This document shows positions 3,851 through 19,470 of a stretch of DNA of 49,191 nt, in pieces. The DNA is from Thermoleophilia bacterium (GTDB taxonomy: Bacteria > Actinomycetota > Thermoleophilia > Gaiellales > Gaiellaceae). Numbering within the stretch: the first letter of the stretch is position 1; each line of letters opens with the position of its first letter. The stretch lies in NCBI GenBank assembly GCA_023382435.1, contig JAHDVS010000004.1, positions 1 to 49,191 on the forward strand, written 5' to 3'. The notes below the pieces were generated by a model that saw nothing but the letters and a program-made list of their open reading frames with translations, was not told the origin of the DNA and made no database searches. The position numbers and the translations under genes are program-made.

Positions 3851-5110
3851 ATGAGCAAGCGCGACGAGGAGGCACGGGACCTGGTTCAGAGGCTCAGTGC
3901 CGGCAAGATGTCTCGGCGGCAGTTCATGACGCGGGCATCGGCTCTTGGCTTGACGGCAGGGGCGATTGGCTCGATCCTTGCCGCCTGTGGGGGGAAGGAC
4001 GATGCTGCGCCAGCCACCGCCCCGACGGAGCCCGCCCCGACGGAGTCGGCTCCTGGCGAGTCGACCGCTCCTGCCGGGACAGTCGATATCGCCGGGGATC
4101 TCGACCATTTCACCTGGGAGGGCTACGACTTGCCGGGGATTATCGATCCCTGGCTCGACGCGAACGGCGTCTCGCAGAACGTGACCTTAATTGGCGTCCA
4201 GGCCGATGTCGAAGCCAAGCTCTTGAGCCCTGCCGGGAAGGGTGTCGATCTGACGTCGGCCAACCAGGCTTTCATCCAGAGCTACCTGGATTTCGGGATC
4301 GTGAGGCCGATTAGCGTCGAGGAAGTCCCGAGCCTCGCGAAGCTGTTTCCCAGGTGGCAGCAGTTTCCGTACAGGAATGACGACGGGACATTCAACGTGG
4401 TGCCGTGGACGTGGGGGTCGCTGGGGCTCACCTACTCGCCGGAGCGCGTCGGAGAAGTGCCGGAGAGCTGGGAGATCGTGTTCGATCCGGCGTTCAAGGA
4501 TCGCGTCGTAATGCTCGACGACGCCCAGAACAACGTCTCGCTTGCGGCGCTGATCCTGGGTTTCAACCCCGACGAGCTGACCCAGGAGCAGTTCGCCGAG
4601 GTCAAGGACTTTCTCGGGCGGGTCATGAAGCAGTCCAAGACACTGGCACCTTCCTTTGGGGACATCGTCTCTCTTTTTGCCGCCGGCGAGGTCGACCTCA
4701 ACTTCCTCGGCTGGATCGGTACCGACGTCTTCATCGAGGGTGCCGAAACGAAGACGATCGTCCCCGCCAAGAACCCCGACGGTTCGCTAGGCCGGAGCCT
4801 CGCCTTCTGCGACTGTGCCATGATCCCACCCGATGCCGACAACGTCCCGGCGGCGCTCGCCTTCAGCGAGCAGCTGATCTCAGGTCAGATCGCCGCGGAT
4901 GCGGCCGCATACCTCGCCGCGGGGACGACGAACCCGGAGGTCGTAGCGCTGATCGACGAGACGACGCGGGCCCTCTTCCCCTACGATGATCTCGGCGCCT
5001 TTTTCGAAAGGGTCGCTCTTCCTAACGGCTTCCCGCGCGAGTCCGACGAATTCGTCACCTTTGACGAAACGGTCAAGGGCTGGGAAGACGTGAAGGCCGC
5101 GGCCCTGTAG
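3851..5110 (+). CDS. ABC transporter substrate-binding lipoprotein, spermidine/putrescine (PotD)-like
   Basis: 419 residues. The N-terminus has a twin-arginine motif (SRRQFMTRASALGLTAG, residues 20-36) followed by a lipobox LAAC at about residues 43-46, so it is probably a Tat-exported lipoprotein. A Pro/Thr/Glu-rich linker (residues ~53-75) leads into the binding domain. Family 1-type features include FTWEGYDLPGIIDPW, VVPWTWGSLGLTYSPERVGE and WIGTDVFIEGAETKTIVP. The overall shape is that of PotD/PotF-type proteins, but the transported compound may be a carboxylate rather than a polyamine given the enzymes that follow. It is the first gene of the island and is followed by two permeases and an ATPase in the usual order. 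Confidence 0.88.
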   Translation: MSKRDEEARDLVQRLSAGKMSRRQFMTRASALGLTAGAIGSILAACGGKDDAAPATAPTEPAPTESAPGESTAPAGTVDIAGDLDHFTWEGYDLPGIIDPWLDANGVSQNVTLIGVQADVEAKLLSPAGKGVDLTSANQAFIQSYLDFGIVRPISVEEVPSLAKLFPRWQQFPYRNDDGTFNVVPWTWGSLGLTYSPERVGEVPESWEIVFDPAFKDRVVMLDDAQNNVSLAALILGFNPDELTQEQFAEVKDFLGRVMKQSKTLAPSFGDIVSLFAAGEVDLNFLGWIGTDVFIEGAETKTIVPAKNPDGSLGRSLAFCDCAMIPPDADNVPAALAFSEQLISGQIAADAAAYLAAGTTNPEVVALIDETTRALFPYDDLGAFFERVALPNGFPRESDEFVTFDETVKGWEDVKAAAL

Positions 5111-5136
5111 TCGGAGGACGTTGCGGGGCGGGCCGA

Positions 5137-6006
5137 ATGAGCGTCAGTCGGCGTTTGGCTGCGGTACTGGCGAGTCCGCTCGGGCTGCTTCTGTTCGTCG
5201 CTATCGCCATTCCGGGAGGGACGTTCCTCGTCTATTCCTTCTTCAGCTTCGATGCCTCGCTCCGTCGGGTAGAGCCCGGCTTCAGCTTCGATAACTACCG
5301 GCTCGTACTGACTGAATCGACGTTTCACACGCTCGGTTGGAACACCCTCGCCATCGCCGTTCCGGCGACTGTCGCATCCGTCGTGGCCGGGTACGCGCTC
5401 GCCTACTACCTGGCGTTCGAGGCGCGACGGTCGCGGACGTTCCTTCTTGCCCTCGTCGTGATCTCGATGCTCGCGAGCTACCTCGTTCGTATCTATGCCT
5501 GGCGTACGCTCATGGGTGAGCGCGGCGTCTTGAACAGCGCGCTCGAGGCGATCGGGATCATCGACGAGCCGCTCGGCGTTCTGCTCTTCTCGCGGCTCAC
5601 CGTGATCGTCGCCTATGTCAACCTGTACCTGCCCTTCACGACGCTGCTCATCTACGCCAGCCTGGCCGGCGTTCCCCGCGCGCTTCGCGAGAGCGCCCGC
5701 GATCTGGGGGCGGGTCGGGGCGAAACCCTGCGTCGCGTCACCCTTCCTCTCTCCGGGCACGCGGTGCTCGTGGCGACCGCGTTCACTTTCTTCCTCAGCG
5801 CTGGCGACTTCTTCGCCCCCGTCCTCCTCGGGGGGACGAGCTCGGTGACATTCGGGGTGGCGATCTCTGATCAGCTTCGAAGCACCGGTAACTACCCCCT
5901 TGGTGCCGCCCTGTCGTTCGTCATGTTGGCGGCGTTTGCGCTCGTGTATCTGCTATTGCGGGCGTCGCTTCGCGCTTTCCGCTTCTTGCCCCGTCAGGTG
6001 GCCTAG
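5137..6006 (+). CDS. ABC transporter permease, PotB-like
   Basis: 289 residues with six membrane helices, starting VSRRLAAVLASPLGLLLFVA. The EAA loop that docks to the ATPase is visible as ALRESARDLGAGRGETLRRV (about residues 186-205), with the conserved Gly. The long hydrophilic loop after helix 1 (EPGFSFDNYRLVL) is typical of the PotB/HisM group. It lies 26 bases after the binding protein and 3 bases before the second permease, so the three form one transcript. Confidence 0.9.
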   Translation: MSVSRRLAAVLASPLGLLLFVAIAIPGGTFLVYSFFSFDASLRRVEPGFSFDNYRLVLTESTFHTLGWNTLAIAVPATVASVVAGYALAYYLAFEARRSRTFLLALVVISMLASYLVRIYAWRTLMGERGVLNSALEAIGIIDEPLGVLLFSRLTVIVAYVNLYLPFTTLLIYASLAGVPRALRESARDLGAGRGETLRRVTLPLSGHAVLVATAFTFFLSAGDFFAPVLLGGTSSVTFGVAISDQLRSTGNYPLGAALSFVMLAAFALVYLLLRASLRAFRFLPRQVA

Positions 6007-6009
6007 CTC

Positions 6010-6825
6010 GTGAGATTCCCACGTCCCCTCGTCCTCGTCGTCGGAGCGCTCATCGCCTTCCTCTACGCGCCGGTCGCGGTCGCCGTCGTGTTCGCTTTCA
6101 ACTCGGGTTCCACCTTGAGCGTGCCGCTGCAGGGGCTCTCGCTCCGTTGGTTTCGGGCGGTCCTGGCCGACCCGGGCTTCAGGGACGCGTTGACGAACAG
6201 CCTTCTGGTGGCTGTCGTCACAGCCGGGGGCACCGCGCTCATAGGCACGGCGAGCGCCTTCGTGATCGTGCGGCGCCGGTCGCGGCCGGTCGCTGCGCTC
6301 GAGGGCTTCTCGCGGCTGCCGGTCATGTTGCCCCCCCTTCTCATCGGCGCCTCGCTGCTAACGACGATCGCCGCGTCCGGCGTCGCTCTCTCGCTGATGA
6401 CGGTGACCGTGGGCCACCTCGTGTACGTAATCCCCTACGTCGTCGTCGTCGTTGTCGCACGGCTCCGCTCCGTCGACCTCGAGCTCGAGCAGGCGGCCCG
6501 GGATCTGGGCGCGGGTCCGCTCGAGACGTTTCGGCGGGTGACGCTTCCGCTTCTCACCCCCGCCGTCCTCGGGGCTGCCATGCTCGCCTTCGCCTTCTCC
6601 TTCGACGAGATCCTGATCACGACCTTCACGTCAGGCCTCGATTCGACGCTACCGATGTTCATCGTCTCGAAGATGCGGCGAACGATCGATCCCTCCATCA
6701 ACGCCGTTGCGACGGTCCTGCTCCTCGTACCCTGGATCGCGCTGGCGCTAGCTCTCGTCACCACGCGCAGGTCCATCGCTCGTGCGCCCGCGCCAGGTAG
6801 TGCCGGGGGCGGGGAGTCGGCGTGA
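6010..6825 (+). CDS. ABC transporter permease, PotC-like
   Basis: 271 residues from GTG at 6010. There are six predicted helices; the extracytoplasmic segment LSLRWFRAVLADPGFRDAL is characteristic of PotC-type subunits. The EAA loop reads LEQAARDLGAGPLETFRRVT. It pairs with the PotB-like subunit to form the transmembrane channel. The stop overlaps the ATPase start (GTGA at 6822-6825). Confidence 0.9.
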   Translation: MRFPRPLVLVVGALIAFLYAPVAVAVVFAFNSGSTLSVPLQGLSLRWFRAVLADPGFRDALTNSLLVAVVTAGGTALIGTASAFVIVRRRSRPVAALEGFSRLPVMLPPLLIGASLLTTIAASGVALSLMTVTVGHLVYVIPYVVVVVVARLRSVDLELEQAARDLGAGPLETFRRVTLPLLTPAVLGAAMLAFAFSFDEILITTFTSGLDSTLPMFIVSKMRRTIDPSINAVATVLLLVPWIALALALVTTRRSIARAPAPGSAGGGESA

Positions 6826-7961
6826 ACGCTTCGCCGAAGGAGTTCGCCGAGTCCCAGGCGCTCGCGAGCGCCCGCGCCGAAAGCGTGTCCGTCGTGGGTG
6901 TAACGAAGCGCTTTGGCTCGGTGGTTGCTCTCTCCGACGTCAGCCTGAGCATCCCAGAGGGGTCCTTCTTCGGTCTTCTGGGCCCGAGCGGCTGCGGGAA
7001 GACGACCCTGCTGCGCATCCTCGCCGGGCTAGAGCGGCCGGACGGGGGGGACGTCCTCTTCAACGGGAAGAGCATCCTGGGCACACCCCCCGAGCGCCGA
7101 CCGTTCAATATCTGTTTTCAACGCTACGCTCTCTTCCCGCACCTGACCGTGCGCGAGAACATCGCGTTTGGCCTGACGACGCGAGGGCGCGGTCGGGGGA
7201 GGCGTCGCCGCCAGGAGATCGCACAGCGGGTCGATGACATGCTGTCCCTCGTGGGGCTCGAGGGGCTGGGCGAGCGTTCCCCTTCGCAGCTGAGCGGCGG
7301 GCAGGCACAACGGGTCGGTCTCTCGCGGGCGCTGATCAACCAGCCGCGCCTTCTGCTGCTCGACGAGCCGCTCTCCGCGCTCGATCGAAACGTGCGGAAC
7401 GTGATGCGCGAGGAGCTCCTGCGCATCCAGCAGGAGCTCGGTACGACCTTCCTGCTCGTGACACACGACCAGGACGAGGCACTGAGCATGTCGAGCGAGG
7501 TGGCACTCATGAACCAGGGCCGCATCGAGCAGGTGGCCGACCCGGAGACTCTCTACCAGCGCCCAGCAACGCTCTTTGCCGCCCGCTTCATCGGCGCAGG
7601 GAGCTTTCTGGCGGCCCGAGCGCATCGGTGCGAGGGCGAGCATGTCTCGGTGGAGGTGGCCGGCGCGCGCTTCCGAGCGCTCGACGCCGGCGTCGTAGAG
7701 GGCTCCGCGGCGACCGTGCTATTGCGACCCGAGGAGATCCGCATCGTGACCGAAGGCGAGAGCCGAACGTCGGGAATCGTCGAGACCTCCGCCTTTCTCG
7801 GCTCGAGCTACGAACTGACCATCACTACTCCGCTGGGGGCTCTCAGGCTCCGAAGCCCGCAGCCGATTCCTCCGGGCGCAAGCATCGCGATCGGCTGGGA
7901 GGAGACGGCCGGGATCTGCTATCCGAGCGACGACTCCGGTGGGCGGGCCGATGCAACGTAG
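6822..7961 (+). CDS. ABC transporter ATPase, PotA-like
   Basis: 379 residues. Walker A GPSGCGKTTLL (about residue 52), Q-loop CFQRYALFPHLTV, signature LSGGQAQRVGLSRAL, Walker B LLLLDEPLSALD and switch His in VTHDQDEALSM. After ~235 residues comes a C-terminal TOBE/OB-fold regulatory region (VLLRPEEIRIVTEG), as in PotA/UgpC/MalK. The enzyme powers the importer. The first ~20 residues (NASPKEFAESQALASARAES) are an extra tail with no family match. This gene ends the transporter part; 138 bases follow before the first FAH gene. Confidence 0.92.
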   Translation: MNASPKEFAESQALASARAESVSVVGVTKRFGSVVALSDVSLSIPEGSFFGLLGPSGCGKTTLLRILAGLERPDGGDVLFNGKSILGTPPERRPFNICFQRYALFPHLTVRENIAFGLTTRGRGRGRRRRQEIAQRVDDMLSLVGLEGLGERSPSQLSGGQAQRVGLSRALINQPRLLLLDEPLSALDRNVRNVMREELLRIQQELGTTFLLVTHDQDEALSMSSEVALMNQGRIEQVADPETLYQRPATLFAARFIGAGSFLAARAHRCEGEHVSVEVAGARFRALDAGVVEGSAATVLLRPEEIRIVTEGESRTSGIVETSAFLGSSYELTITTPLGALRLRSPQPIPPGASIAIGWEETAGICYPSDDSGGRADAT

Positions 7962-8007: not shown

Positions 8008-8099
8008 CCCTCGCTTGAAGCAGAGCCAGCACGCTCCCAGGGTCTGGGCGTGGCGATCGTGATCGACGTCAACAAGGTTAGGTGAAGGAGGCAGCGCAA

Positions 8100-8963
8100 G
8101 TGAGACTGGTCACCTACGCGATCAATGGTGACAGCGCCGTCGGTGTCAAGCTCCCCGGCGGGGTTGCTGAGTCCGGCTACTCGAGCATGCTCGACCTTAT
8201 CCGTGACGGCGAACCCGGTCTCGAGCGGGTGCGGGAGCGCTCCGCCGCGGCCGAGCGCTCCGGAAACCTGATCCGAGCGGAGCGCATTCTCGCTCCCGTC
8301 CCACGCCCGGGAAAGCTTCTCTTCGGCAACGTCAATTTCCACAGCGTCGTCGAGGCGTTCGAGGATCTGCCGATGCCCGAGTATGCGAGCTTCTTCTCGA
8401 AGCTCCCGAGCACCGTGATCGGGCCGGGCGAGGCGATCGTTAAGCCCTACCCCGAGATGGAGCTCGACTACTCAGTCGAACTCGGAGTCGTGATCGGGAA
8501 GACGGCCCGGAAGCTCAGCCCCGAGAGAGCTCTCGAGTATGTCTTCGGCTACACGGTGGTCAACGACCTCAGCGCTCGTGACATCCAGCTCAGGCGCGCC
8601 GGGGAGTACTACCTCGGCGAATCTCTCGGGAAGGGTGCGGACACGTTCTGCCCCATGGGGCCCGAACTCGTCCTCGTCGATGAGATCCCGGATCCCTCGC
8701 AGCTGCACTTGGCCTCCTCTGTGAACGGGGAGCCGCGGCAGTCCGAGGGAGCCACCGGAATGATTTACGACATCCCCCACCTTCTGGCTGCGTTCACGGA
8801 GTTCGTCACTCTCGAGGCGGGCGATGTTGTCAGCAGCGGGTCGCCGGCGGGAGGCATCGGCATGCTGATGGACCCGCCTGCGTGGCTGGAGCCGGGCGAC
8901 GAGATGACCGTCGAGATCGATCGCATCGGCAAGGTCACAAACCCAGTTGTGGCGGGCTGGTAG
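8100..8963 (+). CDS. fumarylacetoacetate hydrolase family protein, copy 1
   Basis: 287 residues from GTG at 8100, selected because AAGGAGG ends 8 bases upstream and the paralogue at 10362 starts at the same point (MRLVTYA). The FAH fold has its metal site in MELDYSVELGVVIGK (Glu residues) and NDLSARDIQLRR (Asp). Further family marks are GKGADTFCPMGPELV, SSVNGEPRQ, a late SSGSPAGGIG and the end motif WLEPGDEMTVEIDRIG. Members hydrolyse or cleave 2,4-diketo acids, or act as isomerases, decarboxylases or oxaloacetate tautomerases, using Mg2+ or Mn2+ in the cytoplasm. The substrate here is unknown; with an SDR and hydroxyacid dehydrogenase nearby, a diketo-deoxy-sugar-acid hydrolase is plausible. 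It is 9 bases upstream of epimerase copy 1. Confidence 0.87.
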   Translation: MRLVTYAINGDSAVGVKLPGGVAESGYSSMLDLIRDGEPGLERVRERSAAAERSGNLIRAERILAPVPRPGKLLFGNVNFHSVVEAFEDLPMPEYASFFSKLPSTVIGPGEAIVKPYPEMELDYSVELGVVIGKTARKLSPERALEYVFGYTVVNDLSARDIQLRRAGEYYLGESLGKGADTFCPMGPELVLVDEIPDPSQLHLASSVNGEPRQSEGATGMIYDIPHLLAAFTEFVTLEAGDVVSSGSPAGGIGMLMDPPAWLEPGDEMTVEIDRIGKVTNPVVAGW

Positions 8964-8972
8964 GGGGTTCCG

Positions 8973-9989
8973 GTGTCGATCCCAGACCGCTCACGGCCCG
9001 TGCTCGTGATTGGTGGCTCCGGCTTCGCCGGGAGCTATACCGTCCGTGCGCTCCACGACGCCGGCTACGACGTCGTGGTCTGCGACCTGAACGACTATCA
9101 GCCGGAGTCGCGCTTCATGATCGGGGGAGCGGCCGAGGGGATCCCCGTCGAGCGCGGCTCGATTGACAACTGGCCGCGGGTCCTCGACGTCGTCAACCGG
9201 CATCGGCCAGGGGCGATCGTCCACCTGGCATCGATCATGGACCTTCCCTTCCTCGACCAGAACCCGATGGTCGCTCTCAAGGTCAACGTCGAAGGGACGG
9301 TCAATCTCCTCGAGGCCGCGCGCTTCAACGACGTACAGCGCTTCGTCTTCTTCTCGACGATCGGCGTCATTCCACAGGTGAAGTACGAGCCGATCGACGC
9401 CGCGCACCCGGTCGTGCTGCCCCGCCACGGGCCCCGCGGCGCCTACAGCGTCGCGAAGCTCTGCGGCGAGGGTTTCTGCTTCGCGTATGAGCAGTCCTTC
9501 GGGCTCGATGTGCGGGTGATCCGGCCCTCTGCGCTCTACGGCTTCGGGATGAGCGCTCTTGCTCCGAACTACATGAAGCAGATCGTCGAGCCGGCCGTCA
9601 GAGGCGAGCCCGTTCGGCTGCCGACAGGCGGGCCGGTTCCCAGGGACTACGTGCACGTCCTGGATGTCGCCAGCCTCGTTGTCGCCGTTCTGGAGGGGGC
9701 AGATGACACCGACCGGATCTACTACGGCGCGACGGGCGAACCGCTTCGCACGGGCGGCGACGTGGGATGCATCGCACGCGAGCTCCTCCCGGGCGCAGAG
9801 ATCGAGATCGGAGACGACTTCACGGAGAGCGATCGAGCCGAGCAAGGGTGTCGCGGCCAGATCTCGATCGAGAATGCCAAGGCGCAGCTTGGCTGGTCGC
9901 CGAGGTACAGCTCTCTTCGCGATGGCATGGCCGAGTACATCGAGCGGTACCGCGCCTTCCTCGCGGCCGCTCAAGGCGGTCACGGATGA
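8973..9989 (+). CDS. NAD-dependent epimerase/dehydratase (extended SDR), copy 1
   Basis: 338 residues from GTG at 8973. The NAD-binding Rossmann motif is VLVIGGSGFAGSYTVRAL, with an acidic residue after beta-2 (VVVCDLND) that favours NAD over NADP. The catalytic Tyr-Lys pair is in YSVAKLCGE, and the Ser/Thr is in FFSTIGV. The substrate-binding side has RPSALYGFGM and PTGGPVPRDYVHVLDVA. The family includes sugar-nucleotide epimerases and uronate dehydrogenase; in a catabolic island without nucleotidyl transferases a sugar or sugar-acid dehydrogenase role is more likely. By hand alignment about 280 of 338 positions equal copy 2 at 11247. Confidence 0.88.
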   Translation: MSIPDRSRPVLVIGGSGFAGSYTVRALHDAGYDVVVCDLNDYQPESRFMIGGAAEGIPVERGSIDNWPRVLDVVNRHRPGAIVHLASIMDLPFLDQNPMVALKVNVEGTVNLLEAARFNDVQRFVFFSTIGVIPQVKYEPIDAAHPVVLPRHGPRGAYSVAKLCGEGFCFAYEQSFGLDVRVIRPSALYGFGMSALAPNYMKQIVEPAVRGEPVRLPTGGPVPRDYVHVLDVASLVVAVLEGADDTDRIYYGATGEPLRTGGDVGCIARELLPGAEIEIGDDFTESDRAEQGCRGQISIENAKAQLGWSPRYSSLRDGMAEYIERYRAFLAAAQGGHG

Positions 9990-10123
9990 GTTCGGGACGG
10001 AATGGAGCGGGGACGCAAACGCTGATTCCGGCTGCCGCCGGCCGAGCGACCGGACAGGCGCGCACGGTTCCGAGCCGCACGCTCGTTCCGGGTCAGATCA
10101 CGCCTGGCTGCGGTGGGGAATGA
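9986..10123 (+). pseudogene. possible relic of a second hydroxyacid dehydrogenase start
   Basis: ATG at 9986 overlaps the stop of epimerase copy 1 exactly as the real dehydrogenase ATG at 12260 overlaps copy 2. The first codons read MSSGRNG against MSPGPGP in the intact gene, then similarity is lost and the frame stops at 10121 after 45 codons. It is best read as the left edge of a decayed gene copy. As a functional 45-residue peptide it has no recognisable feature. Confidence 0.4.
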
Positions 10124-10303
10124 AGGCTGCTAGCGCTCGCCTCGTCATCCTGGAGCCCGGCGACATCATCAGCAGCGGGTCGTCGGGGAGAGAGAGGTCT
10201 GGGCATGCTGATGGACCCGCCGCGGTGGCTCGAGCCCGGCGAGGAGGTCACGGTCGAGGTCGATCGCATCGGCAAGCTCACGAACCCGGTTGCGGCGGGC
10301 TGG
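10124..10303 (+). pseudogene. frameshifted relic of an FAH gene C-terminus
   Basis: In one frame LEPGDIISSGS is readable; after four extra bases relative to both intact copies, the frame changes and continues as MLMDPPRWLEPGEEVTVEVD and then DRIGKLTNPVAAGW. This is the last ~50 codons of the FAH family protein. An extra T after the final Trp codon removes the normal stop. The 5' part of the relic resembles FAH copy 1 (AGCAGCGGGTCG), the 3' part copy 2 (CTGGGCATGCTGATGGACCC). The upstream junction GCCTCGTCATCCT also matches the dehydrogenase start at 12260, so the relic may be a fusion of a dehydrogenase start to an FAH end. Confidence 0.75.
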
Positions 10304-10361
10304 TTAGGCAGACGACGGTTGAGTGCCACGTCCTGCTCCAAACGGAAACGGAGGGTCCGAG

Positions 10362-11237
10362 ATGAGGCTGGTTACCTACGCCCTGAATGGGGAGAGCGCC
10401 GTCGGCGTCAAGCTTCCCGGCGGGGTTGCCGACAGCGGTTACTCGAGCATGCTTGACCTTATCCGCGGCGGCGAACCCGCGCTCGAGCGCGTGCGCCGGC
10501 GTACTACTGAGGCTGAGCGCTCGGGCAGCCTGATCCGACCGGAGCGCATTCTCGCTCCCATCCCACGCCCGGGGAAGCTCCTTTTCGCCTACGTCAATTT
10601 CTACAGCGTCGTTGAGGCGTTCAAGGATGTCGATCTGGTCGAGGAGATCTCGATTCCACAGGCCGCCAGCTTCTTCTCGAAGCTGCCGACTAGCGTAATC
10701 GGCCCAGGCGATGCGGTTGTCAAGCCATATCCCGATTGTGAGCTTGACTACTCAGTCGAGCTCGGAGTCGTCATCGGGAAGACGGCCAAGAAGATCGGCC
10801 CCGAGAACGCTCTTGAGTATGTCTTCGGCTACACCGTGTGTCACGACGTCAGCGCCCGCGACATCGAGCTCCGGCGGAACCCCTGGTTCGACACCACGTT
10901 TGGAAAGGGCTGCGACACGTTTTGCGTGCTCGGGCCGGAGATCGTGCTACGCGACGAGATCCCCGACCCCTCGCGGCTGCATCTGAGCTCCTCCGTGAAC
11001 GGGGAGCCGCGCCAGTCCGAATCGGCCGCGGGGATGATCTTCGACGTCCAACATCAGATTGCCGCAATAACGGAGTTCGTCACCCTCGAGCCCGGTGACA
11101 TCGTCAGCGGCGGGACGCCAGCCGAAGGTCTGGGCATGCTGATGGACCCGCCCCGGTGGCTCGAGCCCGGTGACGAGGTCACGGTCGAGATCGATCGCAT
11201 CGGCAAGCTCACGAACCCGGTTGCGGCGGGCTGGTAG
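10362..11237 (+). CDS. fumarylacetoacetate hydrolase family protein, copy 2
   Basis: 291 residues from ATG at 10362. It is a close paralogue of the gene at 8100. Shared metal-site segment CELDYSVELGVVIGK, GKGCDTFCVLGPEIV and SSVNGEPRQSE. Differences that could change specificity: a six-residue insertion in the lid region (DVDLVEEISIPQAASFF in place of DLPMPEYASFF), a shorter stretch RNPWFDTTFGKG, and CHDVSARD where copy 1 and most family members have NDxSARD. The enzyme is expected to be cytoplasmic and metal-dependent. It is followed after 9 bases by epimerase copy 2 with TAGGAGGTACCG as ribosome site. Confidence 0.87.
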   Translation: MRLVTYALNGESAVGVKLPGGVADSGYSSMLDLIRGGEPALERVRRRTTEAERSGSLIRPERILAPIPRPGKLLFAYVNFYSVVEAFKDVDLVEEISIPQAASFFSKLPTSVIGPGDAVVKPYPDCELDYSVELGVVIGKTAKKIGPENALEYVFGYTVCHDVSARDIELRRNPWFDTTFGKGCDTFCVLGPEIVLRDEIPDPSRLHLSSSVNGEPRQSESAAGMIFDVQHQIAAITEFVTLEPGDIVSGGTPAEGLGMLMDPPRWLEPGDEVTVEIDRIGKLTNPVAAGW

Positions 11238-11246
11238 GAGGTACCG

Positions 11247-12263
11247 ATGGCGATCCCAGACCGCTCGCGGCCCGTCCTCGTCACCGGCGGCGCCGGCTTC
11301 GCCGGCAGCTACACAGTCCGCGCTCTCCTCGACGCCGGCTACGAGGTCGTCGTCTGCGACTTGAACGACTATCGGCCGGAGTCGCGCTTCGTCATCGGGA
11401 AAGCGGCCGAGCAGATCCCCGTCGAGCGTGGCTCGATAGACAACTGGCCGCGGGTCCTCGATGTCGTGGGCCGGCATCGGCCGGGAGCGATCGTCCACCT
11501 GGCATCGATCATGGACGTCGCTGTCCTCGACGAGAACCCGATGGTGGCGCTCAAGGTCAACGTCGAGGGGGCGGTCAACTTCCTCGAGGCGGCGCGCTTC
11601 AACGGCGTCCAGCGCTTCGTCTTTTTTTCGACGATCGGTGTGATCCCACAGGTGAAGTACGAGCCGATCGACGCGGAACACCCAGTCGTGCTGCCAAGGC
11701 ACGGCCCCGTCGGCTCCTACAGCGTGGCGAAGCTCTGCGGCGAGGCTTTCTGCTTCGCCTACCAGCAGTCGTTCGGGCTCGACGTGCGGATCATCCGGCC
11801 CTCGGCTCTCTATGGAGTCGGGATGACTTGGTTCGCCCCGAACTACATGAAGCAGATTGTCGAGCCCGCGGTCCGAGGTGAAGCTGTGCAGTTGCCGACG
11901 GGTGGGCCGGTGCCCAGAGACTACGTGCACGCCGTGGATCTCGCCAGTCTTGTCGTCGCCGTTCTCGAGGGACCCGAGGATGCCGACCGGATCTTCTATG
12001 CCGCGACGGGCAAGCCCCTTCGCACGGGCGGGGACGTGGCGCGGATCGTACGCGAGTTGCTCCCCGGCGCAGACATCGAGGTCGGAGGGCAATTCAGCGA
12101 GAGCGATCTGGCCGAGCAGGCATATCGCGGCCAAATCTCGATCGAGAATGCGAAGACGCAGCTTGGCTGGTCGCCGAAGTACAGCTCTCTTCACGACGGC
12201 CTGGCCGAGTACGTCGAGCGGTATCGAGCCTTCCTCGCGGCATCTGCAGGTGGTCGCCGATGA
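11247..12263 (+). CDS. NAD-dependent epimerase/dehydratase (extended SDR), copy 2
   Basis: 338 residues, same length as copy 1 with no gaps. Rossmann motif VLVTGGAGFAGSYTVRAL (the more canonical GGAGFAG form), NAD-selecting VVVCDLND, catalytic YSVAKLCGE. Substitutions relative to copy 1 cluster at the probable substrate side, such as LYGVGMTWFAPNYM for LYGFGMSALAPNYM and GGQFSESDLAEQAY for GDDFTESDRAEQGC. These could reflect a changed substrate. The stop overlaps the start of the dehydrogenase at 12260 (ATGA). Confidence 0.88.
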   Translation: MAIPDRSRPVLVTGGAGFAGSYTVRALLDAGYEVVVCDLNDYRPESRFVIGKAAEQIPVERGSIDNWPRVLDVVGRHRPGAIVHLASIMDVAVLDENPMVALKVNVEGAVNFLEAARFNGVQRFVFFSTIGVIPQVKYEPIDAEHPVVLPRHGPVGSYSVAKLCGEAFCFAYQQSFGLDVRIIRPSALYGVGMTWFAPNYMKQIVEPAVRGEAVQLPTGGPVPRDYVHAVDLASLVVAVLEGPEDADRIFYAATGKPLRTGGDVARIVRELLPGADIEVGGQFSESDLAEQAYRGQISIENAKTQLGWSPKYSSLHDGLAEYVERYRAFLAASAGGRR

Positions 12264-13318
12264 GTCCGGGGCCGGGACCCCGCCTCGTCATCCTCGACGC
12301 GGGCTTCGGCGACGCCGCCGAGGAAGCGCGGGCGGCGGAGCCGTTCGGGGTGGAGGTAGAGGACGCGCAGGCGAGAACGCCGGAGGAACGTGGCGCCGTG
12401 GTAGCCAGCGCGGAAGGCGTTCTCGTCCGGTTCTCCCCGGTCGATAGTGAATTGATCGCGCGCCACCCGCGGTGGCGGGTCATCGGGCGCTACGGGGTCG
12501 GCGTCGACAACGTCGACATCCAAGCCGCCACGGCACGCGGAATCGCTGTCATCAACGTCCCGGATTACTGCGTCGAGGAGGTCGCCACTCACGCGCTCGC
12601 GCTCATGTTGGCCTCGTGGCGCAAGCTGCCACAGGCCGAGCGTCTGATCGCGGAGGGCCGCTGGAACGACTGGCGCGTGCTGGAGCCTGTACGGCTGCTT
12701 TCGACCTGCACCCTCGGGCTTGTCGGACTCGGTCAGATCGGCGGTGAGGTCGCCCGCCTAGCGCAGCCGCTGTTCGGGCGGATCGTCGCCTTCGATCCGT
12801 CTCCTATCCCGCTTCCAGCAGGTGTGGAGGAAGTCGAGCTCGACCGGCTCTTTGCCGAGGCCGACATCGTCTCTCTCCATTGCCCGCTCACCCCCGAAAC
12901 GCGCCACCTCGCCGACGCTCGCCGACTCGACATGATGAAGCCCGACTCCCTGCTCGTCAACGTCTCGCGGGGCGAGCTCGTCGATACCGCGGCGCTCGCC
13001 AGAGCACTTGACGTCGGTCGCCCCGCGCGGGCGGCGCTCGATGTGCTGCCCCAAGAGCCGCCAGAGCCAGGCGATCCCCTGCTCGGCGCGCCGAACCTGA
13101 TTCTGACCAACCACGTCGCCTGGTACTCGACACAGGCACTGTCGCGTCTGCGCTCGTCGCTCGCTGCCAACTGCGCGGCACTGCTCGTGGGGAAGCCGGC
13201 GCCTGGCGTTGTCAACGCCGACGAGCTCGCGGCCCGCGGCGTGGTGCTGCCCCGCGGACCGTCGCTGGAGCGGCGGCGGGGTCTGCCGGAGTCTCGAACC
13301 CCATGGAAAGGAAGTTGA
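12260..13318 (+). CDS. D-isomer-specific 2-hydroxyacid dehydrogenase (CtBP/phosphoglycerate dehydrogenase-like)
   Basis: 352 residues. The NAD-binding core begins at LGLVGLGQIGGEVARLAQPL, and the catalytic triad is visible: Arg in VNVSRGELVDT, Glu in LPQEPPEPGDP and His in LTNHVAWYS. Substrate-side elements include VGVDNVDIQAATARGI and PDYCVEEVATHALAL, typical of C-terminal-binding-protein-like members. It should interconvert a 2-oxoacid and a D-2-hydroxyacid in the cytoplasm, for instance a lactate- or glyoxylate-type product of FAH cleavage (inference). The C-terminal ~25 residues are Arg/Pro-rich and variable. Translation is coupled to epimerase copy 2. Confidence 0.88.
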   Translation: MSPGPGPRLVILDAGFGDAAEEARAAEPFGVEVEDAQARTPEERGAVVASAEGVLVRFSPVDSELIARHPRWRVIGRYGVGVDNVDIQAATARGIAVINVPDYCVEEVATHALALMLASWRKLPQAERLIAEGRWNDWRVLEPVRLLSTCTLGLVGLGQIGGEVARLAQPLFGRIVAFDPSPIPLPAGVEEVELDRLFAEADIVSLHCPLTPETRHLADARRLDMMKPDSLLVNVSRGELVDTAALARALDVGRPARAALDVLPQEPPEPGDPLLGAPNLILTNHVAWYSTQALSRLRSSLAANCAALLVGKPAPGVVNADELAARGVVLPRGPSLERRRGLPESRTPWKGS

Positions 13319-13322
13319 GCGC

Positions 13323-13385
13323 ATGAGCTTGCACGGTGCCGAACGCCACACGCGCGGTCGCGAGATGGAGGAGAGGCAGCGATGA
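13323..13385 (+). CDS. possible 20-residue minicistron coupling to the next gene
   Basis: ATG at 13323 with AAAGGAAG 7-14 bases upstream opens a 20-codon frame reading MSLHGAERHTRGREMEERQR, whose TGA overlaps the next gene start as ATGA. It could be a leader that couples translation of the epimerase at 13382, or a chance frame in the gap. GAGGAGAGGCAGCG inside it is the ribosome site of the next gene. Confidence 0.3.
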   Translation: MSLHGAERHTRGREMEERQR

Positions 13386-14365
13386 GGATACTCCTCCTCG
13401 GGGGCACCCGGTTTCTGGGGCGGCGGCTCTCCAGCCTACTGATCGAAAGCGGGGCTGATGTAACCGTGCTGCACCGATGCGTGACCGGCGCGCCTCCGCC
13501 GGGGACGAAGACCGTGCAGGGAGACCGCGCGCAGCCCGACGGGCTGGAGGGGATTCGAGACCTGGCCTTCGACACGGTCGTCGATCTCTCCTCGTACTTT
13601 TCCGACTGGACTAGGCGGGCCATCACAGCCTTTCGCGGTCGCATCGGTCACTACGTCTACGTCTCGAGCGGTACGGTGTATCGGCCCTCGGCCGAGCTTC
13701 CCTGGGCCGAGACGACGCCCTTCGGCCCGATGCCGATCTGGGGGACATACGGTGAGGAAAAGGTGACCTCAGAGCGGCTCCTCTGGCAGGCGCATCAGGC
13801 CGGCGACTTCGCCGTCACCGCCTTCCGGTTTCCCTTCATCCTCGGTCCATGCAACTTCACCGACCGGGAGTCGTTCGTCTTCTCGCGCCTGGCGGCCCGG
13901 GAACCGATTCTGCTCCCGAACGGCGGTACCGCCATCAACCAGTTCGTCTACATCGAGGATGCCGCCCAGGCCCTCCTCGCCGCCATCGAGCGGCCAGGTG
14001 CCAGCGCCGGACAGGCATACAACTGTGGCCATGCGAGGGGGGTCACGAATCGCGGCTTCGTCGAGATCTGCGCCGAGCTACTCGACGTCGACCCTGAGAT
14101 CGTCGCGATCGACGAGAACGAACTGGACGTAGCGCGGGACACCTGGGACCTCAACGACCTGGTCTTCCCCTTCCCGGACGAGCACTTCCTTCTCGATGTG
14201 AGCAAGATCCGGCGCGAGCTTGGCACTGAGAGCGAGACGCCGACACGGCGCATGCTCGAGGAATACCTCGCATGGTGGCTCACGCAGCCGAGCCACGAGC
14301 GGGAACGCTACTCGCGGGAGGAGCAGGCGCTTGCCGCCCTACGAGCTCCGGAGCGCTCGCGGTGA
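13382..14365 (+). CDS. NAD-dependent epimerase/dehydratase, atypical extended SDR
   Basis: 327 residues. The nucleotide-binding motif is MRILLLGGTRFLGRRLSSLL; GGTRFLG is typical of the CSP41/isoflavone-reductase-like atypical group. YGEEKVTSERLL supplies the Tyr/Lys pair, and YVYVSSGTVYRP the Ser. It is not a close relative of the two tandem epimerases. It may act on a further oxidised or lactone form of the same substrate (inference). The stop overlaps the SDR start as GTGA, so the two are co-translated. Confidence 0.82.
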   Translation: MRILLLGGTRFLGRRLSSLLIESGADVTVLHRCVTGAPPPGTKTVQGDRAQPDGLEGIRDLAFDTVVDLSSYFSDWTRRAITAFRGRIGHYVYVSSGTVYRPSAELPWAETTPFGPMPIWGTYGEEKVTSERLLWQAHQAGDFAVTAFRFPFILGPCNFTDRESFVFSRLAAREPILLPNGGTAINQFVYIEDAAQALLAAIERPGASAGQAYNCGHARGVTNRGFVEICAELLDVDPEIVAIDENELDVARDTWDLNDLVFPFPDEHFLLDVSKIRRELGTESETPTRRMLEEYLAWWLTQPSHERERYSREEQALAALRAPERSR

Positions 14366-15117
14366 GCCGCCGGCTCGAGCGGAAACGCGCGCTCGTGACG
14401 GGGGCCGCCTCCGGGATCGGCCAGGCCACGGCCGTCCGCTTCGCGGCCGAGGGCGCGCGGGTGGCCTGCCTCGACACGAACGAGGCCGGGCTCGCGCGAG
14501 TGGCCGCGGACGTTGGCGAGGCGGTGCTCCCCCTCCCCTGCGACGTGGTGCGCGAGGAGGAGGTCGAGCGGGCCGTGGCGGCCGCCGTCGAGCGCTATGG
14601 CGGCCTCGACGTGATCGTCGCGAATGCCGGCATCGAGCACCCGGGCGACGCGCGTGTGGACAGGCTCGAGCTCGCCGTCTGGCAGCGAACGCTCGAGGTC
14701 AACCTGACGGGCGTCTTCCTGACCTGCAAACACGGCGTGCGGGCCCTCCTGGCTTCGGGCGGCGGGTCGCTCATCTGCACCGCCTCGCCAACGTCGCTCT
14801 ACGGGCTCGCGCCCGGCCAGGATGCGTACAGCGCCAGCAAGGCCGGCGTACTCGGGCTGGCCAGGGTGATGGCAAACGAGTTCGCGAAGGAAGGGATCCG
14901 GGTAAACGCCGTCGTACCCGGCTTCACGCTCACCGGCCTGGCGGACAGGGTCGTGGCGAACGAGGCCTGGTTTCGAGAGACGGTTGCGGCGATCCCGCTC
15001 GGTCGCCCCGGAGAGCCGGACGAGGTCGCTGCGATAATGGTCTTCCTCGCCTCAGACGAGGCGTCCTACGCAACAGGCGGGATCTTCGTCGTCGACGGTG
15101 GCGTGACAGCGGTCTGA
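14362..15117 (+). CDS. short-chain dehydrogenase/reductase
   Basis: 251 residues, classical SDR. Cofactor motif ALVTGAASGIGQATAVRF with Asp after beta-2 (ACLDTNEAG), indicating NAD(H). Then NAGIEH, catalytic Ser in LICTASPTSLYG and the YSASKAGVLGLARVMANEF Tyr-Lys site. The C-terminus FVVDGGVTAV is standard. Such enzymes oxidise 2-keto-3-deoxy sugar acids to diketo acids that FAH family proteins then hydrolyse, in non-phosphorylated fucose and rhamnose routes; whether that applies here is inference. It is the last enzyme before the regulator. Confidence 0.9.
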   Translation: MSRRLERKRALVTGAASGIGQATAVRFAAEGARVACLDTNEAGLARVAADVGEAVLPLPCDVVREEEVERAVAAAVERYGGLDVIVANAGIEHPGDARVDRLELAVWQRTLEVNLTGVFLTCKHGVRALLASGGGSLICTASPTSLYGLAPGQDAYSASKAGVLGLARVMANEFAKEGIRVNAVVPGFTLTGLADRVVANEAWFRETVAAIPLGRPGEPDEVAAIMVFLASDEASYATGGIFVVDGGVTAV

Positions 15118-15225: not shown

Positions 15226-16062
15226 GTGGCGAATCCGGCAACAGAACCGCAACGCGAGCAACGGAAACCCACGCTGCTTCGATCGGTGGCAAGGGCGATC
15301 GAGGTTCTCTTCTTCGTCGCGGAGGCCGACGCAGGTCGTACGGCCAAGGAGACGTCGCTCGCACTCGATATCCCGATCGGGACTGCCTACCATGCGCTCA
15401 ACACGCTGGCTGCGCGCGGGATGGTGTCGAAGGATTCCGGCCATCGGTATCGATTGGGCTCGAGGGTGGGCGTACTGGCCGATGCCTTCGCGCGCCAGCT
15501 CACTCCTGCCGAGAACCTGCTCGGACCGCTCCACGAGCTAGCGGAGTCGACGGACGAGAGCGCGCACCTCGTTGGCTGGAGGCACGACGACGTTGTCGTC
15601 CTTGCTTCGGTCGAAGGTACGCAGGCAGTGCGGGTCTCAGGGGTTCACACCGGCCAGGCCGGGAATGCCCATGCTCGCGCCTCCGGGAAGGCTCTCCTCG
15701 CCTGGGCACCCTCGAAGCAACGCGAGGCGTACCTGCGAAAGCATGAGCTGACGGCGCTGACGCCGCATACGATCACGGACAGGCAAGCGCTTCTGGCCGA
15801 GCTCGAGCGAATTCGGGCGCGAGGCTACGCGATCGAGGATGAGGAGTTCGCCGAGGGGGCGGCCTGTCTGGCAGCCCCGATCATCGACGGCGGGGTGGTG
15901 ATTGGCGCCTACAGCCTGTCGGCGCCCGCCGAGCGCTTCCGGCGGAACAAGAAGCGCTTGACTCAAGCCGTGCTAGCGGCGGCGAGGTCGGCCGCGACTC
16001 AAAGAACGGAGTTGGTGGTGGAGGCACCCCGCTCCACCGGTCCCGTGTTGACAGGTAGCTGA
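15226..16062 (+). CDS. IclR-family transcriptional regulator
   Basis: 278 residues from GTG at 15226 (GAGGAGG about 11 bases upstream). The winged helix-turn-helix covers residues ~20-80 (LLRSVARAIEVLFFVAEA, SLALDIPIGTAYHALNTLAA, then HRYRLGSRVGVLADAF). The C-terminal effector domain has HARASGKALLAWAPSKQREA and the IclR-type pattern RGYAIEDEEFAEGAACLAAPI. Members bind a pathway metabolite and usually repress, sometimes activate, an adjacent catabolic operon. It is encoded at the end of the island in the same direction and is expected to act on the 3711-3774 promoter and possibly on 15119-15136. Confidence 0.93.
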   Translation: MANPATEPQREQRKPTLLRSVARAIEVLFFVAEADAGRTAKETSLALDIPIGTAYHALNTLAARGMVSKDSGHRYRLGSRVGVLADAFARQLTPAENLLGPLHELAESTDESAHLVGWRHDDVVVLASVEGTQAVRVSGVHTGQAGNAHARASGKALLAWAPSKQREAYLRKHELTALTPHTITDRQALLAELERIRARGYAIEDEEFAEGAACLAAPIIDGGVVIGAYSLSAPAERFRRNKKRLTQAVLAAARSAATQRTELVVEAPRSTGPVLTGS

Positions 16063-16205: not shown

Positions 16206-16282
16206 TGGTACCCCCAGCGGGATTCGAACCCGCGATCTCCGGCTTGAAAGGCCGGTGTCCTAGGCCGCTAGACGATGGGGGC
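16206..16282 (-). tRNA. tRNA-Glu (anticodon TTC)
   Basis: On the minus strand the gene begins GCCCCCATCGTCTAGCGG. The anticodon arm is CCGGC-CTTTCAA-GCCGG with anticodon TTC, and the T arm contains GGTTCGAATCC. The acceptor ends pair GCCCCCA with TGGGGGT; discriminator A at 16209 and CCA encoded at 16206-16208. It marks the right edge of the catabolic island. Confidence 0.97.
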
Positions 16283-16679: not shown

Positions 16680-16752
16680 GGGCGGCTAGCTCAGCTGGGA
16701 GAGCGCCTGCTTTACACGCAGGAGGTCGTCGGTTCGAGCCCGGCGCCGCCCA
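16680..16752 (+). tRNA. tRNA-Val (anticodon TAC)
   Basis: Acceptor GGGCGGC pairs with GCCGCCC; D arm GCTCAGCTGGGAGAGC; anticodon arm CCTGC-TTTACAC-GCAGG with anticodon TAC; T arm contains GGTTCGAGCC. Discriminator A at 16752. The following bases are CCT, so the CCA end is not encoded. Confidence 0.97.
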
Positions 16753-16762
16753 CCTTCGGCTT

Positions 16763-16801: not shown

Positions 16802-19027
16802 GTGCTCCGGCTGCTTCCGGCGATCATCGCGCTGGGCGCGTTCGCCGCGATCCTCGCCGGCTGGGCGGCCGGCGGGGGCGCGGTCGAGGCCGCCTGGGCG
16901 CCGTCGTGGGGCCTCGAGCTGAGCTTCGAGCTCGACGGGCTCGGCGCGCTCTACGGACTCCTCGCGACGGGAATCGGCTTCCCGGTCTTTGCCTACGCCG
17001 CGCGCTACCTGCCCTTGCACCTCGATCACCAGGGCCGCTCCCACCGGGAGGAGTGGCGCTTCTTCGGGCTCCTGCTCCTGTTCATGGTCTCGATGGTCGG
17101 GCTCGTGACCGCCCGCGACCTGATCCTCCTGTTCGTCTTCTGGGACCTGACCGCCGTCTCGTCCTACTTCCTGATCGGCTACGACCGCCAGGAGGCGGAG
17201 GCGCGCTCCTCGGCGCTGATGGCGCTGCTCGTGACGGGCGTCACCGCCGTGCTCCTGCTCGCCGCGATCCTGCTCCTCTGGGCCGAGTACGGCACGTTCT
17301 CGCTGCCCGAGCTGGCCGCGCGGGCACGCCCGGGGGCGCTCGTGACCGGCGCGGGTGTGCTGGTCGCGATTGCCGGGCTCGCGAAGAGCGCGCAGGTGCC
17401 GTTTCACTTCTGGTTGCCACGGGCGATGGCGGCCCCGACACCCGTGTCCGCGTACCTGCACTCGGCGGCGATGGTCGCGGCCGGCGTCTTCCTGCTCGCC
17501 CGCTTCTACCCGCTGCTCGCCCTGAGCGGCCTCGTGCTGGACCTGTTGCTGGCGGCCGGCCTTGCCTCGATCGCAATCGGAGGCGTGCTGGCGCTCACCT
17601 GCGACCGGCTGAAACAGGTGCTCGCCTACTCGACGATCTCCCAGTACGGCTACGTCGCCACGATGTACGGCCTCGGCGGTGGCAAGAGCGTGGCCGCGGC
17701 CGCGTTCTACGTTCTCAGCCACGCGCTCGCGAAGAGCGCCCTCTTCCTGACCGCGGGCGCCGTGACCGAGGCGACCGGGGAGGACAGGCTCTCGCGGCTC
17801 GGCGGCCTCGCCCGCTCCATGCCGGCGCTCGCGGTCGGAAGCGGGCTCGCGGCCGCCGGCCTCGCTGCATTGCCGCTGACGATCGGGTTCTTCAAGGACG
17901 AGCTCTTCTTCGCGGCGTCCTTCGACGACAGCTGGCCCGCCGCGGTCGCCGCGGTTGCCGCGGCCGGGCTGACGTTCGCCTACATCGGCCGCTTCTGGCT
18001 TCGGATCTTCGCCGGACGCCGCCGCAGCGACGCCGTCCGGCTGCCGCCGCTGCTCACGGCACCCGTCGCGGTGCTCGGCCTCGCCGTTCTCCTCGGCGGT
18101 GCCTTCGCGCCCCCCTTTGGCGACCTCGCCGCGGCGGCCGCGCGGGCCAGCGCCGGCGCCGTGCCCCCGATCGAGCCCGCCTACCACCTCGATGCCCGGG
18201 CCGAGAACCTGATGGCGCTGGCCGCCTACGCCACCGGGATCCTGCTGCTCGCGGCGCCGTGGCTCTGGCGGCGCCCCGCGGCCTGGGTTGCGTCAACCGG
18301 AGCACGGCTCGGGCCCGAGCGTGCCTACACGGTCGGGCTCGCCGGTCTCAACCGCTTCTCCGACGCGATCCACGAGATCGAGGTGCGCGACCTGCGCAGC
18401 CGGATCGCCGCGGTGCTCGTGCCCGGCGGCGCGCTCGCCGTTGCGGGGCTCGCGGCGACGCCGACCGCGGGCGCATACCGGGCGGGCACGCTCTCCACGG
18501 ACGACCTCGCGCTCGTTCTCACGCTCGCTGTGGTCGCGCTGGCGGCGATCGGGACGGCGGCGCCGCGCCACCACCTCACCCTGCTGCTCTCCGTCGCCGG
18601 CGTCGGCTTCGGTCTCGCGGTCGTGTACGCGCTGCTCGGAGGCCCCGACGTGGCGCTCGTCGCCGTGCTCGTCGAGACGGTCGCCGCACTCGTCTTCCTG
18701 GGCGTGTTCGCGCTCGTGCCGAGGGACGTGCTCAGGCGCATGGAGGCCATCCCGACTCCCCGGCGGCGACGCTGGCGCGATCCCGCGATCGGCATCTTCG
18801 CGGGTGCGGTCGTGTTCTTCGTCGTCTGGGGCGCGCTCTCGCGGCCGAGCCCTGCGGCGGCGATCGCGGACGAGCACGTTCGGCTCGCCCCGCAAGCCCA
18901 TGCCAAGGACGTCGTCACCGCGATCCTCGCCGACTTCCGCGGTCTCGACACGCTCGGGGAGATCACCGTGATCGCAGTCGCGCTCGTCGGCGTCACGACG
19001 CTGCTCGCGCGAGGACGGCTGCGATGA
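16802..19027 (+). CDS. mrpA: Na+/H+ antiporter subunit A (Mrp type)
   Basis: 741 residues from GTG at 16802. The N-terminal two thirds is a proton-translocating NuoL/ND5-like domain: DLILLFVFWDLTAVSSYFLI, the Lys-containing KSAQVPFHFWLPRAMAAPTP helix and the PVSAYLHSAAMVAAGVF segment. The C-terminal third has the MrpA-specific DUF4040 region (SVAGVGFGLAVVYALLGGPD, VALVAVLVETVAALVFLGVF) and a final MbhE-like segment ending in LDTLGEITVIAVALVGVTTL. Subunit A and D together exchange cytoplasmic Na+ for protons; the complex supports alkali and salt tolerance. Only 49 bases separate it from tRNA-Val; TAGACT at 16787-16792 may drive a leaderless mRNA. Confidence 0.93.
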   Translation: MLRLLPAIIALGAFAAILAGWAAGGGAVEAAWAPSWGLELSFELDGLGALYGLLATGIGFPVFAYAARYLPLHLDHQGRSHREEWRFFGLLLLFMVSMVGLVTARDLILLFVFWDLTAVSSYFLIGYDRQEAEARSSALMALLVTGVTAVLLLAAILLLWAEYGTFSLPELAARARPGALVTGAGVLVAIAGLAKSAQVPFHFWLPRAMAAPTPVSAYLHSAAMVAAGVFLLARFYPLLALSGLVLDLLLAAGLASIAIGGVLALTCDRLKQVLAYSTISQYGYVATMYGLGGGKSVAAAAFYVLSHALAKSALFLTAGAVTEATGEDRLSRLGGLARSMPALAVGSGLAAAGLAALPLTIGFFKDELFFAASFDDSWPAAVAAVAAAGLTFAYIGRFWLRIFAGRRRSDAVRLPPLLTAPVAVLGLAVLLGGAFAPPFGDLAAAAARASAGAVPPIEPAYHLDARAENLMALAAYATGILLLAAPWLWRRPAAWVASTGARLGPERAYTVGLAGLNRFSDAIHEIEVRDLRSRIAAVLVPGGALAVAGLAATPTAGAYRAGTLSTDDLALVLTLAVVALAAIGTAAPRHHLTLLLSVAGVGFGLAVVYALLGGPDVALVAVLVETVAALVFLGVFALVPRDVLRRMEAIPTPRRRRWRDPAIGIFAGAVVFFVVWGALSRPSPAAAIADEHVRLAPQAHAKDVVTAILADFRGLDTLGEITVIAVALVGVTTLLARGRLR

Positions 19028-19470
19028 GACCCACGCTGTCCCAGGCGGTCGCGCGGCTGATCCTGCTCCCCGGGCTCGCGATCTCGATCGCGACGCTCGT
19101 CAAGGGGTACGGCGACGCCGGCGACGGGTTCGCCGCCGGCGTGATCGCGGCGCTCACCCTGCTCGTCCAGTACGTCGCGTTCGGCTACCGGGAGGCGGAG
19201 CGTCGCATTCCCGGCCTGCGCCGGCTCCCCGTGGCGGCCGTTGCCGGGCTCGCGCGCGCGCTCGCCGTCGCGCTCGTGCCCGCCGCCCGCGGGGACGCGA
19301 TCCTCACGCACTGGCCGCCGCCGGGCGACTCGCCGGTGCGACTCGGGACGCTCGAGCTCGTGAGCGCGGTGCTGTTCGATGTCGGGGTCTTCCTGGTCGT
19401 CCTCGGGGTCGTCACGGGCGCCGTCGGCGCGATCGCCAGGGCGGCCGAGCGCGCGGGGGGGCGCGCGTGA
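19024..19470 (+). CDS. mrpB: Na+/H+ antiporter subunit B (Mrp type)
   Basis: 148 residues, start overlapping the mrpA stop (ATGA). Four membrane helices with the MnhB hallmark GYGDAGDGFAAGVIAALTLL close to the N-terminus, followed by QYVAFGYREAERRIP. It ends TGAVGAIARAAERAGGRA. It corresponds to the separate MnhB subunit, so subunit A has not absorbed it as happens in some lineages. The stop overlaps mrpC (GTGA). Confidence 0.92.
   Translation: MRPTLSQAVARLILLPGLAISIATLVKGYGDAGDGFAAGVIAALTLLVQYVAFGYREAERRIPGLRRLPVAAVAGLARALAVALVPAARGDAILTHWPPPGDSPVRLGTLELVSAVLFDVGVFLVVLGVVTGAVGAIARAAERAGGRA

Follow-up and report, generated by a model that had tools for sequence, protein, structure and literature searches.

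At positions 8100 to 12263 of the window (the whole stretch of 49,191 nucleotides analysed here, C4:1-49191 in a draft genome of 2.73 Mb and 79 contigs), two genes of the fumarylacetoacetate hydrolase (FAH) family, FAH1 and FAH2, alternate with two genes for extended short-chain dehydrogenases/reductases (SDR), E1 and E2. The host is an uncultured actinobacterium and probably belongs to Thermoleophilia, the label carried by metagenome-assembled relatives of its family. Tandem duplication of a catabolic gene pair is ordinary; the new part is the FAH variant, which lacks the lid dyad and one metal ligand of its relatives. The explanation that we favour, and to which we give about an even chance, is a sugar-acid operon (for an aldonate- or lactone-derived compound) with a tandem duplication of a cognate FAH-epimerase pair, whose FAH proteins acquired non-hydrolytic chemistry with split specificities. 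Annotation commonly labels FAH enzymes hydrolases from family membership alone, and this pair keeps a selected fold without the residues that define the reaction.

A tandem FAH-epimerase array

The array contains the following features.

8100..8963, + strand: FAH1, FAA_hydrolase family (PF01557, 197 bits), 287 residues; without the lid Gly, the HxxE dyad and the first metal Glu
8973..9989, + strand: E1, extended SDR of the Epimerase family (PF01370, 138 bits), 338 residues; SDR motifs intact
10142..10304, + strand: what is left of a third FAH gene, a frameshifted 3′ end alone, recognised by nucleotide match to the FAH1 and FAH2 tails and by protein search
10362..11237, + strand: FAH2 (PF01557, 202 bits), 291 residues; the losses of FAH1 plus a Gln to Glu change and a six-residue lid insertion
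11247..12263, + strand: E2, extended SDR (PF01370, 142 bits), 338 residues; SDR motifs intact

The Pfam assignments and the common strand bear out the direct repeat described in the initial annotation, and both FAH proteins score far above the PF01557 cut-off of 23.9 bits. The hand count of about 280 shared epimerase residues was accurate: E1 and E2 are identical at exactly 280/338 positions with zero gaps. The FAH pair is more diverged, as had also been noted, with 217/285 identical residues, a two-residue deletion and a six-residue insertion, which the alignment places in FAH2 after FAH1 codon 89. At the DNA level the copies are 84.2% (E) and 78.5% (FAH) identical, and the repeat stands far above chance in blocks of 248-300 nt with 76-84% identity. 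For the FAH genes we favour the starts GTG 8100 and ATG 10362, both of which give MRLVTY... and have a GGAGG-like ribosome-binding site upstream; the alternative starts at 8082 (FAH1) and 10323 (FAH2) were set aside for these.

A draft of 79 contigs, most likely metagenome-assembled, invites the suspicion of a collapsed or chimeric repeat. The copies, however, differ in 16% (E) and 21% (FAH) of their nucleotides and carry different insertions and deletions in unbroken frames on a 114.6-kb contig, and we regard an assembly artefact as extremely improbable.

Active-site residues lost from both FAH copies

In FAHD1, Mg is held by E71, E73 and D102, a lid dyad of H30 and E33 positions the water, and substrate binding and orientation fall to G24 and Q109 (PMC7116474, PMC8398924). 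By motif alignment, not superposition, E71, E73, D102, H30, E33, G24 and Q109 correspond to positions 131, 133, 162, 83, 86, 77 and 169 of FAH2, whose numbering we use below. In both window copies Val83, Ala86 and Ser131 replace His, Glu and Glu. The lid His-x-x-Glu dyad of the FAH-type hydrolase/decarboxylase branch is therefore absent from both, and two of the three ligands of the FAHD1-type three-carboxylate metal site remain (Ser131, Glu133, Asp162). Position 77, the lid Gly of relatives, is Asn in FAH1 and Tyr in FAH2. Gly77, His83, Glu86 and Glu131 are invariant in 63/63 relatives, 33 of them mostly from the same family and 30 from the phylum, both samples favouring high-scoring and hence canonical members. 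Retained in FAH1 and FAH2 are Glu133, Asp162, Arg166, Lys182 and Lys107; Gln169 is retained in FAH1 only and is Glu in FAH2.

Since hydrolysis needs the dyad and the dyad is gone, canonical FAH hydrolysis by either protein is unlikely on the basis of these sequences. The losses of the Gly, the His, the Glu and the metal Glu came before the duplication, because they are common to FAH1 and FAH2. The branch leading to the window FAH pair is long: it has 0.72 changes per column, where the sister FAH of genome G033 has 0.20 (relative-rate p < 2e-5).

An AlphaFold2 model of FAH2 (predicted local distance difference test score, pLDDT, 80; predicted template modelling score, pTM, 0.83) has YisK (8sky) as its best Foldseek match, with a template modelling (TM) score of 0.84; the lid (pLDDT ~40) and the loop between Gln169 and Lys182 are modelled at low confidence. 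It is thus fair to ask whether these are ordinary hydrolases or decarboxylases with a rebuilt lid, in which other residues, such as the FAH1 lid His or Glu85, replace the dyad. The FAH1 lid, NFHSVVEAF, does have a His two residues upstream of the lost one, Glu85 is present in both copies, and the fold and core are conserved. In FAH2, however, Tyr replaces that His; both proteins have Ser where the metal Glu should be, and the canonical pattern is kept by every relative in the two samples; we consider a rebuilt hydrolase improbable.

A single duplication followed by purifying selection

The copies are sisters in both trees (23 E proteins, 35 FAH proteins) at 100% bootstrap, with pair supports of 100/98 for E and 100/100 for FAH, and they do not fall in distant clades. 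The proposal that the FAH-epimerase pair had been duplicated thus stands, as a single tandem event. Nei-Gojobori estimates of synonymous divergence (dS) are 0.45 for E and 0.61 for FAH. The ratio of nonsynonymous to synonymous divergence (dN/dS) is 0.23 for E and 0.27 for FAH, and thus all four genes are under purifying selection. The copies changed at equal rates, with 17 versus 16 changes for FAH and 18 versus 15 polarised changes for E, so there is no sign of asymmetric divergence, where one copy keeps the old function and the other takes a new one.

These data also bear on whether the array is a gene-dosage amplification under relaxed constraint, in which the repeat boosts expression while its FAH genes undergo slow decay. 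The long FAH branch and the reduction of one FAH copy to a 3′ fragment would suit such decay. The low FAH dN/dS, frames that stay intact over a dS of 0.6, the equal rates and the 34/47 near-invariant FAH columns that are unaltered in FAH1 and FAH2 alike argue against it, and we hold this account to be quite improbable.

The initial annotation had further proposed that the pair diverged at substrate-facing positions after duplication, and this holds in part. Differences between FAH1 and FAH2 are denser around the active site, where both indels also lie: 25/61 positions differ in the lid and the Gln169-Lys182 loop versus 44/224 elsewhere (Fisher p = 0.001, with segments picked post hoc from the alignment, guided by FAHD1). 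What the proposal as worded does not fit is that the biggest active-site change is common to both FAH proteins and so predates the duplication, and that the E1/E2 differences are scattered and symmetric.

The main rival to an altered enzyme is that FAH1 and FAH2 are pseudoenzymes, non-catalytic structural or regulatory partners of, for example, E1/E2 or the dehydrogenases. The dyad, lid Gly and metal Glu are gone from both copies, yet selection is purifying; the N-terminal domain of HpcE has an FAH fold and no E-x-E in the aligned metal-motif region; and YisK, the nearest fold match, has a reported cell-envelope role beyond its enzyme activity, as cited in PMC10825186. A pure scaffold, on the other hand, would not need the two metal ligands, catalytic Lys and Arg that are retained, nor the Gln kept in FAH1, and the FAH1/FAH2 differences cluster around the active site. 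On balance we judge pseudoenzymes unlikely.

E1 and E2 are intact extended SDR proteins

The signature residues of extended SDR enzymes, G14/G17/G20, S128, Y158 and K162, are invariant across E1, E2 and 20 relatives. An AlphaFold2 model of E2 (pLDDT 94) best matches the UDP-glucose 4-epimerase TM0509 (4zrm) in Foldseek, at 28% identity. Among named SDR equivalogs in NCBIfam, the best score is 92 bits against a cut-off of 475, and D-erythronate dehydrogenase reaches 27-35 against 325. Some of the E1/E2 changes lie in likely substrate loops, with no concentration there; Trp195, in one such likely loop, is found in E2 and its nearest relatives and is Ala in E1.

A third FAH remnant between E1 and FAH2

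The frameshifted 3′ end of a third FAH gene, located between E1 and FAH2, had been missed in the initial annotation. The remnant (10142-10304) is 89% identical to the FAH2 tail (E 3e-56) and 80% identical to the FAH1 tail (E 3e-37), and its last 108 nt match the FAH2 tail at 104/108 and FAH1 at 91/108. Because it is nearer to FAH2 than to FAH1, it derives from the FAH2 lineage after the FAH1/FAH2 split. From the presence of this third, broken 3′ end, we conclude that the array underwent at least two rearrangements. No promoter or terminator pattern was found between E1 and FAH2.

The 152 nt from the E1 stop to the remnant (9990-10141) show weak similarity to the FAH tails (shuffle p 0.003 for FAH1, 0.06 for FAH2), which hints at a further decayed FAH copy and is too weak for a claim. 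A 16/17-nt match between 10138-10154 and 12281-12297 raised the possibility that a second 2-hydroxyacid dehydrogenase gene, arisen by duplication, had left its 5′ end in 9990-10141, joined to the FAH tail; scored over the whole stretch, the likeness does not exceed that of shuffles (p 0.58), and the idea was rejected.

E and FAH are partners in sugar-acid catabolism

Relatives of E (E <= 1e-60) and of this FAH type (E <= 1e-70) co-occur in exactly the same 6/129 genomes of the order: G000, G015, G028, G033, G068 and G079. The probability of matching six genomes by chance is ~1/C(129,6), or 2e-10, assuming independence and ignoring kinship. The two genes lie on one contig in C17 (a second cluster of the window's own genome), G015, G033, G068, L034 and L048. 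In L034 (Actinomycetota SZAS-14) and L048 (Chloroflexi ACE_CHL4), the E gene lies immediately before the FAH gene, with a homologous importer close by. Homologues of other window genes adjoin these relatives: in L035 the gene immediately after the E homologue encodes a 61% homologue of the classical SDR, and in G033 a 35% homologue of the 2-hydroxyacid dehydrogenase comes after the canonical FAH. The partnership of E with this FAH type is thus real. The search that the initial annotation had proposed for adjacent FAH/epimerase pairs in other genomes turned up single pairs; the tandem FAH-E-FAH-E order was seen in none of the relatives examined.

The clusters of C17, L034 and L048 variously encode a protein akin to the D-apionate lactonase ApnL, a DUF1537-type acid-sugar kinase (assigned in L034 from sequence resemblance only) and class II aldolases. 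Because related clusters carry an ApnL-like lactonase, an acid-sugar kinase or an aldolase, we conclude that the E-FAH pair belongs to sugar-acid catabolism, and the partnership is thereby identified in uncultured Actinomycetota and Chloroflexota.

Several features of these clusters deserve separate mention. C17 (L023:1-18345) holds a second, canonical FAH-epimerase cluster beside a sugar importer, a DUF1537-type kinase and a class II aldolase, together with an ApbA-type reductase, a metallo-beta-lactamase-fold protein and a GntR regulator; it is likely a complete acid-sugar pathway. It also includes, at L023:3455-4144 (+), a short ketol-acid reductoisomerase-like open reading frame (ORF) of 229 residues that lacks the first ~90-105 model positions. 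A conserved protein of ~650 residues lies beside E-FAH clusters at L023:11137-13104, L024:9333-11225, L028:12759-14729 and L048:5919-7916, all on the - strand. It has no significant Pfam or PDB match, and against NCBIfam NF049900 (ApnL) it scores 254 bits in C17 and 165 bits in L048, with a cut-off of 750, which makes it a distant ApnL relative; these proteins are possibly lactonases for other unusual aldonolactones. In G033 (L025:13191-15918, -), a 2-hydroxyacid dehydrogenase and an HpaI/GarL-type aldolase lie downstream of the canonical sister FAH, a neighbourhood that may point to the ancestral pathway.

A proposed non-hydrolytic role for FAH1 and FAH2

In the sugar-acid operon that we favour, the importer would take up a small anionic compound and E1 and E2 would use NAD to oxidise or epimerise a hydroxy acid. 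FAH1 and FAH2 would bind a 2-oxo acid through Glu133, Asp162, Arg166, Lys182 and Lys107 and, having no His-Glu dyad for water, would catalyse a step without hydrolysis, for instance tautomerisation, isomerisation or elimination of water. We favour such a reaction because selection preserves the fold and much of the apparatus that binds metal and oxo acid. FAH1 and FAH2 would differ in substrate range, because they are unlike in the lid and in the loop leading up to Lys182, and because Gln169 is changed to Glu in FAH2 alone. Tautomerisation requires no hydrolytic water. FAHD enzymes are generally oxaloacetate tautomerases (PMC10825186), and FAH-family dehydratases that use other catalytic glutamates exist (PMC6336799).

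Four points weigh against this proposal. The structurally known FAH dehydratase retains all three acidic metal ligands, which the window FAH proteins do not have in full (PMC9795676). No catabolic protein reaches an NCBIfam equivalog cut-off that would name a substrate. The window cluster itself has no lactonase, kinase or aldolase such as those of the related clusters. Finally, a compensating lid residue may be present, since the lid is modelled at such low confidence.

Comparison with characterised systems sharpens the picture. The L-2,4-diketo-3-deoxyrhamnonate hydrolase (8gsr) belongs with Route III non-phosphorylative pathways (SDR 4-dehydrogenase plus FAH hydrolase), in which, as in the window, the FAH is encoded with sugar-acid dehydrogenases. 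The likeness amounts to 30% identity and a Foldseek TM of 0.77, and NF053535 is the top NCBIfam match of both window FAH proteins, but at 157 and 152 bits against a cut-off of 500, and the window SDR partner is of the extended, GalE-like kind. The catalytic pair of this group, His83/Glu86 in C785_RS20550 (PMC6336799), is Val and Ala in the window proteins. With YisK (8sky) and FAHD1, of the oxaloacetate tautomerase/decarboxylase branch, the window FAH proteins have in common the fold, 2/3 metal ligands, the Arg and the Lys, but they are without the lid Gly, the dyad and the first metal Glu. Nearly all of the decarboxylase activity of Cg1458 depends on the Gln whose equivalent is lost in FAH2 (PMC8398924, PMC7116474).

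Clusters for D-apionate and four-carbon acid sugars (ApnL, DUF1537 kinases, aldolase) resemble the single-copy E-FAH clusters C17, L034 and L048, which have at least one such component each. Only distant ApnL relatives occur in E-FAH clusters, however, and the window has an IclR regulator, a different importer and no ApnL-type lactonase among the annotated genes of its operon. Finally, TM0509 and other extended SDR enzymes, including D-erythronate dehydrogenase, share with E1 and E2 the fold (TM 0.82) and the NAD and catalytic motifs; E2 differs from TM0509 in its low identity and in a catabolic setting rather than one of nucleotide-sugar synthesis.

Rarity of the FAH variant

A motif scan of the GTDB r220 species set with SGYSSMLD and VNF[YH]SVVE found no relative, these being peptide patterns that distant variants would escape. 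Samples of the order, class and phylum (129, 399 and 396 genomes) held nothing closer to the window FAH proteins than the canonical FAH of G033. The best plasmid matches were 40-43% identical, all under 60%, and viral contigs yielded no relatives. It is conceivable, if somewhat doubtful, that the pair represents an unrecognised FAH subfamily that gave up the dyad and one metal ligand for a different sugar-acid step, with a dedicated GalE-like partner, and was split by duplication into two specificities. With its FAH gene duplicated and beside a dedicated partner, the operon is a natural setting in which to ask what an FAH scaffold is capable of once the dyad is gone.

The surrounding operon

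The array sits in an operon-like run with an importer and dehydrogenases, in agreement with the catabolic operon initially proposed.

3851-5110, + strand: solute-binding protein (Pfam SBP_bac_8)
5137-6006 and 6010-6825, + strand: permeases of the ABC importer (3851..7961); PotB/PotC/PhnT2-like NCBIfam scores under the cut-offs
6822-7961, + strand: importer ATPase (ABC_tran/TOBE_2), 61% identical to the ATPase of the importer near the L048 E-FAH pair
12260..13318, + strand: 2-hydroxyacid dehydrogenase of the phosphoglycerate-dehydrogenase type (PF02826/PF00389), overlapping the E2 stop
13382..14365, + strand: third extended SDR, unrelated to E1/E2 (PF01370, 86 bits)
14365..15117, + strand: classical SDR dehydrogenase (PF13561, 228 bits)
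15226..16062, + strand: IclR-family regulator (PF01614, 126 bits; PF09339)

The importer upstream of FAH1 is of the polyamine / 2-aminoethylphosphonate transporter type, and the IclR-family protein is likely the regulator of the operon. From orientation and spacing, we infer that the run from importer to regulator is a single transcript. Beyond it, tRNA-Glu (16206-16282, -) and tRNA-Val (16680-16754, +) adjoin a series of long overlapping membrane-protein ORFs (16802-21708, +) that has the sequence appearance of an Mrp-type cation/proton antiporter operon.

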